Below, in pieces: positions 10,087 to 20,759 of a DNA stretch of 31,210 bases. Made by a program: the position numbers and the translations under genes. The stretch is from a virus. Every line of letters starts with the position of its first letter. The first letter of the stretch is position 1. Below the pieces are notes generated by a model that saw nothing but the letters and a program-made list of their open reading frames with translations, was not told where the DNA came from and made no database searches. The stretch covers positions 1 to 31,210 of the IMG/VR virus record IMGVR_UViG_3300047550_001289; one strand, given 5' to 3'.

Positions 10087-11270
10087 ATGATTACAAATAC
10101 TCCTTTTTTATTTTTTTGTGAACAATACCGGGCAAGTGCCAACGCACAAACAGCGTCATCATGCAATCCTGATGGTGCAGAATAACGCAACCCAGTTGCC
10201 GTGTGTTCAAATTCAAAGTTACGCATCTCGTCTGCTATTATGCCTTCGGGAAACTTAATAAGCCCAGCGTGAACGTCAGCCGTTAATTGCTCCATCATCT
10301 GTTGCTTTGATACCGATGTGAACTTCACACCAACAGAACGGGGGCAATGCCTTTGTATTTTCTCAACAATCGGGTCACCAACCCCGGTGCTATCTATTGC
10401 GGCAGGGGTTTGGCCTACAACGCGAATGATGTGCTGTTCAGTTTGCGCCCAATCTTTTTGGAAGCGTTCAAAATGACAGACACGATATTCAGCATCAAGG
10501 CCAATAATGACCGTGTAATCGCTGTACTTTGCAAGGTCAATGCCATACCACTCAACAGGTGCGGTGGAAATCGGTGCGATACATTGCGAAATGTAAGACA
10601 ATCCAAACGGGTTGCTTCCATCTTCGGTAGGCTCTGCCAAATACAACTCGCTAAATATGTGCTGTGGCAGGTCACGTTTGGCCTGTTCAACTTCTTCAAG
10701 TTTCAGCACACCAGCATTGACTGCGTCATAAGCGGTAATCTTATAAAAGCCATAGTTCGGCTCACCCATCCTTGCCCGTTCACTCAACTTGTAACCCCAG
10801 TTCTTTTTGCCTTTTACGTTACCGATTAGCTTTGCCTTGCCTTCGGTTTTGGTCAGGGTGGAACGCAGGGCAAACCACGCATCTTCCCTTGCCCGTGTGA
10901 ACTCATCAAACACCGCAGCATAGACGTCATCACCATAAAGGTTGTCTGGCTTGTCTGCGGACTTAAATTCTATTATGCCGCCCGTTGGCAACGTCAAACG
11001 CAACTTGCTTTCATTGACCTTGAAAAAGTCACGCACGGTCACTTGGTTACGCATTCGCCTGAATGCTATCTCCGCCTGTTGGTACACGGGTGCCACCCAC
11101 CACACCGATTGGTTTTCTTTTAGCTTCAACGCCTGTTCAAACAGCCAAATGATATGACTTGCTGTCTTGCCAACTTTGGTGGCAGCAGCGGTCACGGTGT
11201 ACCTATCTGGGCTGTCAAGTATTGCCCGTTGGTAGTCCGTTACGAATGGCCGGGTGTAGCTAATGTGCAT
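10083..11270 (-). CDS. Terminase large subunit (TerL)
   Basis: The DNA packaging motor: an N-terminal ATPase pumps DNA and a C-terminal RNase H-like nuclease cuts it. The protein has 395 residues. The Walker A-like loop is AAATKVGKT (28-36, a deviant form common in phage terminases). Walker B is VYAAVFDEF (116-124) with the acid pair D122-E123. The nuclease acids are probably D245 (GIDLAKYSDYT), D293 (AIDSTGVGD) and D371/D372 (GLHDDAVCA). The size is slightly short for the family but all landmarks are present. Its first 31 bases overlap the glycosyltransferase gene, and its stop overlaps the next start by ATGA. Placement of two sugar-transfer genes and a methyltransferase between TerS and TerL is unusual. 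Confidence 0.9.
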   Translation of the reverse strand: MHISYTRPFVTDYQRAILDSPDRYTVTAAATKVGKTASHIIWLFEQALKLKENQSVWWVAPVYQQAEIAFRRMRNQVTVRDFFKVNESKLRLTLPTGGIIEFKSADKPDNLYGDDVYAAVFDEFTRAREDAWFALRSTLTKTEGKAKLIGNVKGKKNWGYKLSERARMGEPNYGFYKITAYDAVNAGVLKLEEVEQAKRDLPQHIFSELYLAEPTEDGSNPFGLSYISQCIAPISTAPVEWYGIDLAKYSDYTVIIGLDAEYRVCHFERFQKDWAQTEQHIIRVVGQTPAAIDSTGVGDPIVEKIQRHCPRSVGVKFTSVSKQQMMEQLTADVHAGLIKFPEGIIADEMRNFEFEHTATGLRYSAPSGLHDDAVCALALARYCSQKNKKGVFVII

Positions 11271-12298
11271 TGATAGAATTCCAGTCGGTCTTTGTTTATG
11301 GCTTCAAGGTTGTGGTGTTGGTTACAGTAAACTTGATTTGCAACCCCTCGTATTTTGTTCACTTCCGGTTGGCTCTCCATTGCCTGTTTCATTGCCTTAT
11401 ACCATTCGTCTGGTGTGTTGAGGCAGAACTTCACCCCTGCATTGTTCAGGTGTTGCAGGTAAGGTTCTACACCAGATGCGATAACCGGCAACCCATACGC
11501 AGCCGCTTCGATTATTTTCAGCTCACTTTTGCAGCTATTCCATTCGTTTTGTTCCAATGGTGCTAACGCACAATCAAACAGGCGGTAAAAATTGCCGTAC
11601 TCGTTTGGCTGCTGTGCGTGAGATACCAATACCTGTGGCCGCAGTACCGGGTTGTTTCCGTTGAACTTGTAAAGGATGCTATCCCAAATGTAGTTATTCG
11701 CCATCCACCCGCATAAAACGAAGCGGACATTGTCATGCTCGTTGCAGATGCGTTCAATGGCTTCTGATAGTATCATGATGTCATTGCTGTGGGTAAGTCC
11801 ACCCACCCAGCCAAAAGTGAAGTATTCTCTTTCCTGCGGTGTTGAAAGCCACTGGTCATCGGTCAGGTCAAGTGCATTCGGCAGCACCTGAACATTGCGG
11901 TTGTACTTGCTGATTTTCTGCGCCAAATAATCTGTGGTCGTGGTCACACCATCTGCGTAGCGGATGCCGTCAATGATCTGCTGCTTTAATTTGTGTTCTC
12001 GGAAATACTTATAAGTCGGGTGGTGTTTTGGCAGTACCCAATAGTCGTCAATGTCCACGATGTATTTGATGCCGTTCTTTGCAAGGTAGTGGAGTATCTC
12101 GTAGTGGTTCTCTCCCAGCCACCTGTTGAAAATGACCAAGTCATAGTTTGATAAATGCGGTATTCCATTGCGTTCAAAGTTTTGTGAAATGCTTACGGTT
12201 ATATCATCAGGGTAATCAATCTGCAATCGTTTCAGGGGTGTGTACAAGCGGTGGTATTCAACACCACCCATTCCTTCCCATAGTGCTAATACTTTCAT
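11240..12298 (-). CDS. GT-B glycosyltransferase (GT4-like)
   Basis: A 352-residue glycosyltransferase with a GT-B fold. The N-terminal half begins MKVLALWEGMGGVEYHR and includes IKYIVDIDDYWVLPKHHP (about 96-113). The C-terminal donor-binding half starts near FGWVGGLTHSNDI (about 177-189) and has the GT4-type signature LKIIEAAAYGLPVIASGVEP (about 275-294), whose first Glu would contact the nucleotide sugar. It probably moves a sugar onto a phage protein, modified DNA or host surface glycan; donor and acceptor cannot be read from sequence. ATGA overlap with the upstream 46-residue gene and a 31-base overlap with TerL tie it to the late operon. Confidence 0.75.
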   Translation of the reverse strand: MKVLALWEGMGGVEYHRLYTPLKRLQIDYPDDITVSISQNFERNGIPHLSNYDLVIFNRWLGENHYEILHYLAKNGIKYIVDIDDYWVLPKHHPTYKYFREHKLKQQIIDGIRYADGVTTTTDYLAQKISKYNRNVQVLPNALDLTDDQWLSTPQEREYFTFGWVGGLTHSNDIMILSEAIERICNEHDNVRFVLCGWMANNYIWDSILYKFNGNNPVLRPQVLVSHAQQPNEYGNFYRLFDCALAPLEQNEWNSCKSELKIIEAAAYGLPVIASGVEPYLQHLNNAGVKFCLNTPDEWYKAMKQAMESQPEVNKIRGVANQVYCNQHHNLEAINKDRLEFYQCTLATPGHS

Positions 12299-19364: not shown

Positions 19365-19377
19365 TTTACTATATTTG
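19348..19377 (+). promoter_or_regulatory. Leaderless promoter for the methyltransferase gene
   Basis: TTG (19348-19350), 19 bases, TATATTTG (19370-19377), then CACC and ATG at 19382. The 25 bases at 19360-19384 recur exactly at 20755-20779. Confidence 0.75.
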
Positions 19378-19381
19378 CACC

Positions 19382-20353
19382 ATGCGACACGGCAGTTTAT
19401 TTTCAGGAATCGGTGGGTTTGACCTTGCAGCCGAATGGATGGGGTGGGAGAATGTGTTCCATTGCGAATGGATGGAGTTTCCACGAAAGGTATTGGAATA
19501 CTACTGGCCTGATGCTGACAGCCACGTTGATATATGTAAAACTGATTTCAAAAAATATGCAAACAGAATTGATATTCTCACAGGGGGATTTCCCTGCCAA
19601 CCATTCTCCCTTGCAGGAAAGCGAAAGGGAACAGATGATGAACGCTACTTGTGGGGCGAAATGCTACGAGCAATACAAGAGATTAAACCCACATGGGTCA
19701 TTGCAGAAAATGTCTTTGGTATCGTCAATATTGATGGCGGACTGGTATTCGAGCAGGTGTGCCTTGACTTGGAAAATGAAGGGTACGAAGTTCAACCGTT
19801 TATTATTCCAGCTGCGGCCAAAAACGCACCACACCGCAGAGACAGAGTCTGGTTTGTTGCCCACACCAACAGCAGGGATTGTAAATGGATCAGAAATGAA
19901 AAAGAATATGATTCCAAGAGGGTTAGGTGCAATGGCAAAATTAAGCATGTTACCCACCCCGACAGTAATGGACAGCACCAATGCAACGGCAACAATGAAA
20001 TCAACCCAAGTGAAGGAAGGATCAATGCACTCGGTAACGCTGAACAGGGCAATGGCAATGGGAATGCTACCGACACCGAGAGTATTTGCATACAAGGACA
20101 GCGCAACGGACAGGGGCAAGGGCAATTTAGGGGAAGTGACTGGAGCAGGTTCCCAACTCAATCCCCGATTTGTAGCGGAGATGATGGGCTTCCCACCCAA
20201 CTGGACGGAATTACCTTTTCAAAGTGGAGAAACGAGTCAATCAAAGGATATGGAAATGCCATAGTGCCACAAATAGCATACGAACTTTTCAAAATAATAG
20301 AACATGAGAATAAAACTAAAAGCACCACAGCACAACAGCAGGACAACATTTAG
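19382..20353 (+). CDS. C5 cytosine DNA methyltransferase (orphan)
   Basis: Adds a methyl group to C5 of cytosine in DNA, probably to protect phage DNA or mark it for control. The protein has 323 residues with the family motifs in order: motif I FSGIGGFD (7-14), catalytic PCQPFS (71-76, Cys72), ENV (109-111), RRDRVW (151-156), a Gly/Asn-rich target recognition region (about 162-265) and motif X GYGNAIVPQIAYELF (about 289-303). No restriction partner is encoded nearby. The 3' end overlaps the DnaA-like gene by 50 bases. The recognition region is also open in the +1 frame, listed separately. The specificity cannot be read from sequence. Confidence 0.9.
   Translation: MRHGSLFSGIGGFDLAAEWMGWENVFHCEWMEFPRKVLEYYWPDADSHVDICKTDFKKYANRIDILTGGFPCQPFSLAGKRKGTDDERYLWGEMLRAIQEIKPTWVIAENVFGIVNIDGGLVFEQVCLDLENEGYEVQPFIIPAAAKNAPHRRDRVWFVAHTNSRDCKWIRNEKEYDSKRVRCNGKIKHVTHPDSNGQHQCNGNNEINPSEGRINALGNAEQGNGNGNATDTESICIQGQRNGQGQGQFRGSDWSRFPTQSPICSGDDGLPTQLDGITFSKWRNESIKGYGNAIVPQIAYELFKIIEHENKTKSTTAQQQDNI
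19413..20264 (+). CDS. Overlapping +1-frame ORF inside the methyltransferase gene
   Basis: A 283-codon frame, shifted +1 relative to the methyltransferase and open from GTG 19413 (first ATG 19452) to TAG at 20264. It does not read like a random shadow. It contains three LPTP units (LLPTPTAGI, MLPTPTVMD, MLPTPRVFA) and ends SQLNPRFVAEMMGFPPNWTE, sequences that, from memory, recur in proteins from other phages and Bacteroidota genomes. The canonical methyltransferase frame covers the same DNA with all its own motifs. It may be a true overprinted gene, an alternative C-terminus reached by frameshift, or a frame kept open by DNA-level conservation. No ribosome site is evident. Confidence 0.4.
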   Translation: MGLTLQPNGWGGRMCSIANGWSFHERYWNTTGLMLTATLIYVKLISKNMQTELIFSQGDFPANHSPLQESEREQMMNATCGAKCYEQYKRLNPHGSLQKMSLVSSILMADWYSSRCALTWKMKGTKFNRLLFQLRPKTHHTAETESGLLPTPTAGIVNGSEMKKNMIPRGLGAMAKLSMLPTPTVMDSTNATATMKSTQVKEGSMHSVTLNRAMAMGMLPTPRVFAYKDSATDRGKGNLGEVTGAGSQLNPRFVAEMMGFPPNWTELPFQSGETSQSKDMEMP

Positions 20354-20759
20354 GCGCAGCGAAATTGAAAGGCTCAATGAAGTCATTTATCACCAGTCAA
20401 TCCGCATTGCAGAACTTGAAAGGATGCTGAAAATGGACACAATGAACAAGGATGAATACTACATAAAAGCAGCACACATGGCAATTAAGTCTGTGTTCAC
20501 TCATTATCAGCCTGAATATATCACCATTGAAACCCGGAAGCGTGAAATTGTGGAAATGCGTCAGATATTTCAATGGCTATGCCGCAATAAAATGACACTT
20601 TCGTTGCACAAAATCGGTCAAATATGCGGTGGTCGTGACCATTCAACAATCATTCATTCGTGTAAGGTGGTTGACAACCTGATGATGTATGACCGCAGGT
20701 TTGCAAAAAACCTTGAAAGCGTGAGAAATAAGTTTGAGGAGTTTGCAGAACAGATTTAA
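20304..20759 (+). CDS. DnaA domain IV-like DNA-binding protein
   Basis: A 151-residue protein. The N-terminal part (about 15-50) is a charged helix (RSEIERLNEVIYHQSIRIAE). The C-terminal part carries the DnaA domain IV pattern: KREIVEMRQIFQWLCRNKMT (about 79-98), then LHKIGQICGGRDHSTIIHSC (about 101-120). The GGRDHSTIIH box is the DnaA signature that contacts DnaA boxes. The AAA+ domain of DnaA is missing, so it may bind origin DNA or compete with host DnaA without ATP-driven melting. It overlaps the methyltransferase gene by 50 bases. Confidence 0.75.
   Translation: MRIKLKAPQHNSRTTFRRSEIERLNEVIYHQSIRIAELERMLKMDTMNKDEYYIKAAHMAIKSVFTHYQPEYITIETRKREIVEMRQIFQWLCRNKMTLSLHKIGQICGGRDHSTIIHSCKVVDNLMMYDRRFAKNLESVRNKFEEFAEQI

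Follow-up and report, generated by a model that had tools for sequence, protein, structure and literature searches.

A phage gene for a C5 cytosine DNA methyltransferase carries a second long open reading frame in its +1 frame, and the question raised by this locus is whether that second frame is itself a gene and, if so, what its product would do for the enzyme. In the window (by which we mean the whole stretch of 31,210 nucleotides analysed here, from IMG/VR virus record IMGVR_UViG_3300047550_001289), the +1 frame is open from stop to stop over 19365-20264 (299 codons), or over 283 codons when counted from a GTG at 19413. It contains two LPTPT units and one LPTPR unit and terminates in LNPRFVAEMMGFPPNWTELP; the methyltransferase frame over the same bases retains SPICSGDDGLP...GYGNAIVPQIAYELF. 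The initial annotation, made from the sequence alone, had described the 283 open codons, the LPTPT units and the endings of both frames, all of which held, and had proposed a real overlapping gene encoding a partner of the enzyme, a main claim that the analyses below support. The features referred to throughout, here called alpha (the methyltransferase) and beta (the nested frame), are as follows.

19382..20353, plus strand: alpha, C5 cytosine DNA methyltransferase of 323 aa, with motifs I-VIII and X, the large catalytic domain
19394..19429, plus strand: alpha motif I (SLFSGIGGFDLA), from the sequence; invariant or near-invariant in alignment A3
19550..19562, plus strand: beta initiation region AAAAAATATGCAA, silent in the alpha frame (K K Y A)
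19557..20264, plus strand: beta, nested gene in the +1 frame, 235 aa plus stop, identified by phrog_1008, stop depletion, its own start and selection
19583..19609, plus strand: alpha motif IV with the catalytic Cys (GGFPCQPFS), from the sequence; P71, C72 and Q73 invariant in A3
19706..19714, plus strand: alpha motif VI (ENV); E109, N110 and V111 invariant in A3
19829..19861, plus strand: alpha motif VIII (PHRRDRVWFVA), from the sequence
19857..19949, plus strand: beta LPTP cassette 1 (LPTPTAGIVNGSEMKKNMIPRGLGAMAKLSM), by module parsing
19931..20182, plus strand: alpha residues 184-267, N/G/Q-rich, predicted disordered (pLDDT) and neutral in the alpha frame (omega_alpha)
19950..20066, plus strand: beta LPTP cassette 2 (LPTPTVMDSTNATATMKSTQVKEGSMHSVTLNRAMAMGM), by module parsing
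20067..20156, plus strand: beta LPTP cassette 3 (LPTPRVFAYKDSATDRGKGNLGEVTGAGSQ), by module parsing
20157..20219, plus strand: beta motif-IX-like block LNPRFVAEMMGFPPNWTELPF, collinear with RLAAxFxEWMxGWPxGWVT of one-chain enzymes
20252..20272, plus strand: alpha motif X (GNAIVPQ), from the sequence; G291 and N292 invariant

Alpha is a member of PF00145, with motifs I, IV (PCQ), VI (ENV), VIII and X in order; it matches that family with E 3.3e-45, the match being confined to aa 1-192, and phrog_363 with 1.2e-69. Its AF2 model (AF2 inputs were restricted to window, IMG/VR and genome loci) has pLDDT >90 for most of the core (residues 1-165 and around motif X) and <50 over residues 184-186, 188-253 and 263-267, and the best Foldseek match of the model is M.HhaI (1.9e-16, ~167 columns). 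As predicted by the model, alpha amounts to a large domain whose insert, lying over the cassettes, is disordered, and it has no folded target-recognition domain (TRD). Because the PF00145 match ends at aa 192, residues 184-267 are disordered and neutral, and a motif-IX-like block lies in the +1 frame, alpha is not a one-chain C5 methyltransferase, a type that it fails to match in having no folded TRD and no motif IX between motifs VIII and X.

A nested gene under purifying selection

The homolog set comprised 75 distinct genes, gathered from annotated phages and from two separate IMG/VR scans, one using beta and one using alpha; the alpha-based scan is unbiased with respect to the +1 frame, but returns the closest relatives. 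Between alpha codon 58 and the end of beta, stops in the +1 frame occurred at 0.013 per gene in these homologs, against 6.06 expected from within-gene synonymous shuffles, and no comparable depletion was found in other frames or in alpha codons 0-50. For the window gene itself, none of 300 synonymous shuffles was free of +1 stops, and since shuffles of alpha within the gene give ~6 such stops, the open frame lies far outside what chance would produce. The occurrence of stops in the +1 frame of close homologs would have refuted the overlapping gene; internal stops are essentially absent, and the reading is not refuted on this count.

The pattern of substitution gave a second view of the two frames. 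The third-position difference between homologs in alpha was 0.41 over aa 1-50 and 0.40 over aa 294-318, against 0.12 over aa 111-140, and in the variable region the fastest sites were the first positions of alpha, which are the third positions of beta. Normalised synonymous change in alpha stood at ~1 up to codon 48, fell to 0.74 at codons 49-56 and to 0.21 at codons 57-64, was uneven thereafter (0.05 at both 129-136 and 257-264), and recovered to 0.80 at codons 281-288 and 0.94-0.96 at codons 289-304. Synonymous constraint in alpha thus begins with the beta ATG and has waned by codon 281, shortly ahead of the beta stop at codon 294.

Two-frame dN/dS estimates assigned this constraint to the separate frames. 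Upstream of beta (alpha codons 1-56) omega_alpha was 0.04 and omega_beta 0.89; over codons 81-165 the values were 0.17 and 0.49, and over codons 266-290 they were 0.19 and 0.22. Across the cassettes (codons 166-265), where the estimate rests on 75 close pairs, the alpha-frame alignments being trustworthy for close pairs only, omega_alpha was 1.19 (0.96-1.46) and omega_beta 0.37 (0.28-0.47). These computations show that alpha is neutral in the variable region while beta is constrained there, and that selection on both frames, rather than on the methyltransferase frame alone, is required.

The start of beta was located by the same means. The conserved start is the ATG at 19557-19559, preceded by an A-rich leader. 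Synonymous change at alpha codons 57-60 was 0.021, 0.001, 0.000 and 0.001, against ~0.46 upstream; these near-fixed codons are AAAAAATATG, with the beta ATG inside, and the ATG is retained also where alpha reads YAN or YEG. A +1 ATG just 5' of motif IV was present in 156 of 161 homologs, against 38.7 expected. The GTG at 19413, from which the initial annotation had counted the second frame, was rejected as the start, many homologs carrying +1 stops before alpha codon 58; hence the length of 235 aa. From the stop depletion, the fixed codons around the ATG and the two-frame dN/dS, beta is shown by computation to be a nested gene that has a start of its own and is held under purifying selection.

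Beta cassettes, one-chain relatives and distribution

In beta, the frame over alpha motif VIII encodes a stretch running into the first LPTP cassette, and the C-terminal part, after the cassettes, is the LNPRFVAEMMGFPPNWTEL block, which resembles the motif IX found in classical C5 enzymes, as in LHPRECARVMGYPDSY of M.HhaI. Beta proteins carry from 0 to 5 LPTP cassettes of ~40 aa each, three of them in the window. Among 633 cassette pairs that were at least 80% identical, 360 were flanked by cassettes less than 40% identical; cassettes are thus exchanged.

Beta meets membership of phrog_1008, a family annotated as DNA methyltransferase (E 2.3e-31, aa 51-272 of P0002). No match above cut-off was found in Pfam or NCBIfam, nor any convincing match to solved structures (PDB) by profile, and the identification of beta as an HNH or other known domain was rejected on these grounds. 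The AF2 model of beta alone was poor (mean pLDDT 61), and this low-confidence model gave no usable fold match in the structure search. Such a result might be expected if beta folds on its partner, but is not evidence of a fold; a small-domain fold of beta is accordingly not shown.

The nature of beta is most directly suggested by one-chain enzymes of actinobacteriophages. Prophage prophi104-2 gp17, Estave1 gp75 and Gordonia phage Ailee gp4 carry motifs I-VIII, LPTP cassettes, an EWM-type block and motif X in a single chain, the block being followed by LRIIGNGVVPQQA or similar; order, cassettes and IX block correspond to those of the window, but all lie in one frame, and in gp17 and gp75 the +1 frame is broken by internal stops. 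A beta HMM matched the three enzymes with E 3.5e-9 to 1.2e-11, the best of 200 shuffled controls reaching 8.9 (effective database size set to 1000, with a small test set). The interval between the leucine that opens the IX block and the motif X glycine measures 31 residues in gp17 and 32 in gp75; in the window, where it spans both frames, it measures 31.7 codons. On account of this collinearity, the HMM matches and the IX-X spacing, we assign to beta the target-recognition region and motif IX, that is, the small domain (PMC3404938). The likeness depends, as a caveat, on short repeated motifs and the IX block, and the N-terminal ~90 residues of beta have no counterpart in the one-chain enzymes.

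In Mycobacterium phage Tucker, motifs I-VIII lie on gp91, and the +1 frame encodes gp90, which carries the cassettes, RLAARFSEWMMGWEEGWVTDL and motif X (MVGNGVCTQQA), a pair that we read as a split intermediate between the one-chain and the nested forms. Loci L312, L365 and those of other cluster A mycobacteriophages have adjacent 'DNA methylase' genes corresponding to alpha (motifs I-VIII) and a +1 beta (cassettes, IX and X). The two genes overlap only briefly, and the enzyme is here split in the manner of M.AquI. In Gordonia phage Ailee (L364, gp4/gp5), the one-chain methylase gene is annotated as two joined pieces, with a LAGLIDADG endonuclease within.

The nested arrangement itself recurs in phages and in bacterial genomes of several phyla. 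A tblastn search with the +1 frame gave matches at less than 60% identity in 65 phage records, and the first nine inspected all had beta overlying a C5 methyltransferase gene in frame +1; the earlier impression that strings of this frame were familiar from other proteins was therefore borne out, both here and by the phrog_1008 match. The same arrangement is found in coliphage K1G (ORF30/31), Pseudomonas phage PMG1, Synechococcus phage Ssp-JY39 and some Mycobacterium phages, as well as in the cultured Bacteroides phages BS-TP4 and BKO1-TP3 and Lactobacillus phage Lc-Nu. A beta profile recovered 80 loci in bacterial genomes, mostly of Bacteroidota but also of Bacillota, Proteobacteria and others, and further viral contigs. 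All 142 new loci (not deduplicated) overlap alpha in frame +1 of a C5 methyltransferase, and no standalone beta occurred among them, plasmid matches to the K1G beta lying outside this count.

Seven loci in Bacteroides and Parabacteroides genomes (L223, L231, L233, L234, L241, L242 and L243) have two or three in-frame TGA codons in alpha, without TAA or TAG, and an intact beta. The three TGA codons outside the cassettes sit at positions occupied by Trp in most relatives, and in alpha codons 2-57 synonymous differences exceed nonsynonymous ones (e.g. 24:8); long ORFs nearby are mostly free of TGA, so that a general recoding is possible but not established. Either TGA is read as Trp in alpha, or alpha has decayed with beta kept; both are possible and we do not rank them. 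A further locus, in Mucilaginibacter sp. (L210), is a decayed copy, with alpha frameshifted and bearing several stops.

The split-enzyme reading and its rivals

The locus is, in our judgement, likely to encode a split C5 methyltransferase in which a catalytic alpha and a target-recognition beta are overprinted, although no biochemistry, expression, binding or activity data are available. In this reading, frame 0 would supply the large domain, for AdoMet binding and catalysis, with a disordered linker in place of the small domain, and the +1 frame, from its own ATG at 19557, would supply a conserved N-terminal part, the cassettes and the motif-IX block as the equivalent of that small domain. 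Each protein would be translated on its own from a shared mRNA, and the two would join in trans to form a single active methylase, whose DNA target would be set by the cassettes. We infer, rather than show, that the two proteins are produced and bind one another, that the pair methylates DNA and that the cassettes read its sequence. Naturally split C5 enzymes and the complementation of artificial fragments show that such assembly works (PMC3404938, PMC3439449).

A bolder reading, towards which the evidence leans by a narrow margin, is that the nested frame constitutes an exchangeable specificity code, phages swapping ~40-aa cassettes and so changing or stacking their methylation targets. Since all that these bases encode in alpha is the disordered linker, specificity would be free to change without affecting catalysis, and the catalytic gene would, if this is true, physically carry its own recognition subunit.

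Among the alternatives, the best to survive, though unlikely, is that beta is a real overprinted gene with another function, e.g. inhibition of the methylase or of host restriction, the former having been raised by the initial annotation. In its favour, the N-terminal part of beta is absent from the one-chain enzymes, its fold is without match, and the seven Bacteroidales loci keep beta intact despite in-frame TGA in alpha. Against it, the cassettes and IX block have homologs that lie in frame within C5 methyltransferases, beta was never found without alpha among the 142 loci, and the alpha model has no folded TRD; a target-recognition and motif IX subunit was judged the most likely function instead.

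Also proposed initially, and very unlikely, is a programmed frameshift by which ribosomes translating alpha would pass into the +1 frame; this would give an alternative C-terminus joining the catalytic half to the LPTP/IX end. In the cluster A phages Tucker and Peaches the cassettes, IX and X all lie in the +1 ORF, where one shift would give a full enzyme. In window-type genes, however, motif X is back in frame 0, so that a full enzyme needs two shifts, and constraint starts exactly at a conserved ATG of beta's own, with its A-rich leader, kept in the great majority of homologs as counted above.

That the +1 similarity is a mere shadow of strong alpha conservation and codon bias, without a second protein, is all but excluded: several beta motifs do overlie conserved alpha motifs (the stretch into LPTPT lies over PHRRDRVWFVAHTN), but synonymous shuffles of the same alpha proteins give ~6 stops, synonymous constraint in alpha begins at the beta ATG, and beta is still constrained where alpha is neutral, with alpha first and beta third positions the fastest in the cassettes.

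Relation to known systems and genomic context

The split enzyme that we favour has partial precedents. M.EcoHK31I consists of two polypeptides, the large one with motifs I-VIII and X and the small one with motif IX, and its TRD is predicted on the large subunit (PMC3404938); the small gene is reported to lie inside the large gene in another frame (Lee, Kam and Shaw 1995). Alpha and beta of the window meet the same motif distribution as this enzyme (YGGCCR; related to M.EaeI), a likeness that rests on motif content alone. M.EcoHK31I belongs to a restriction-modification system, whereas here no nuclease gene was recognised nearby, and selection and homology place the recognition cassettes on the nested small protein. 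If our reading is true, the recognition part of M.EcoHK31I-like enzymes may lie on the small subunit.

M.AquI (CYCGRG) is a C5 enzyme split after motif VIII, with the recognition part on a second polypeptide (PMC3404938), and the gp91/gp90 pair of Tucker looks similar. The window does not conform to the M.AquI type: motif X of M.AquI is on its beta, whereas in the window GNAIVPQ is in the alpha frame and beta, without motif X, is fully nested. Multispecific C5 methyltransferases of SPbeta-type phages have consecutive recognition modules of ~40 aa in one chain; beta resembles them in its consecutive modules, a likeness of layout rather than one based on sequence comparison, but theirs, unlike those of the window, are in one chain.

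An out-of-frame HNH element, ShiLan, is known from mycobacteriophage methylase genes (PMC11855218) and, like beta, it is an ORF concealed out of frame within such a gene. It is, however, a sporadic homing-endonuclease insertion, whereas beta was present in every close homolog examined, and beta is not of ShiLan type, having no HNH match in Pfam.

M.EcoHK31I already shows that a C5 methyltransferase can consist of two polypeptides with motif IX on the smaller one; what is new is a phage-wide family, with variable cassettes in a nested frame, cassette shuffling and a neutral overlapping segment of alpha. A search confined to open-licence literature turned up no description of nested recognition subunits in phage methylases. 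Should the split reading hold, a gene that is common in phages and prophages, and is annotated either as one methyltransferase or as a pair of overlapping 'methylases', is an overprinted split enzyme. As no Pfam or NCBIfam model finds beta above cut-off, beta has probably been missed in most annotations, where alpha looks incomplete. The locus also offers a large, old and well-sampled example of overprinting on the same strand, with measurable freedom in one frame and constraint in the other.

In its IMG/VR record, alpha lies between a gene for a TOPRIM/DnaB-like protein on one side and one for a DnaA-HTH protein on the other. The neighbouring genes include no recognised restriction nuclease, and for this reason alpha and beta probably form a solitary phage methylase, the use of which would, by inference, be shielding against host restriction. 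The gene directly after alpha (20304-20756), which overlaps its end, encodes a DnaA C-terminal helix-turn-helix domain (PF08299, E 1.1e-17). Elsewhere in the window, a group 1 glycosyltransferase gene (11240-12295, minus strand; PF13692, E 6.5e-11) adjoins the terminase gene of the same phage.
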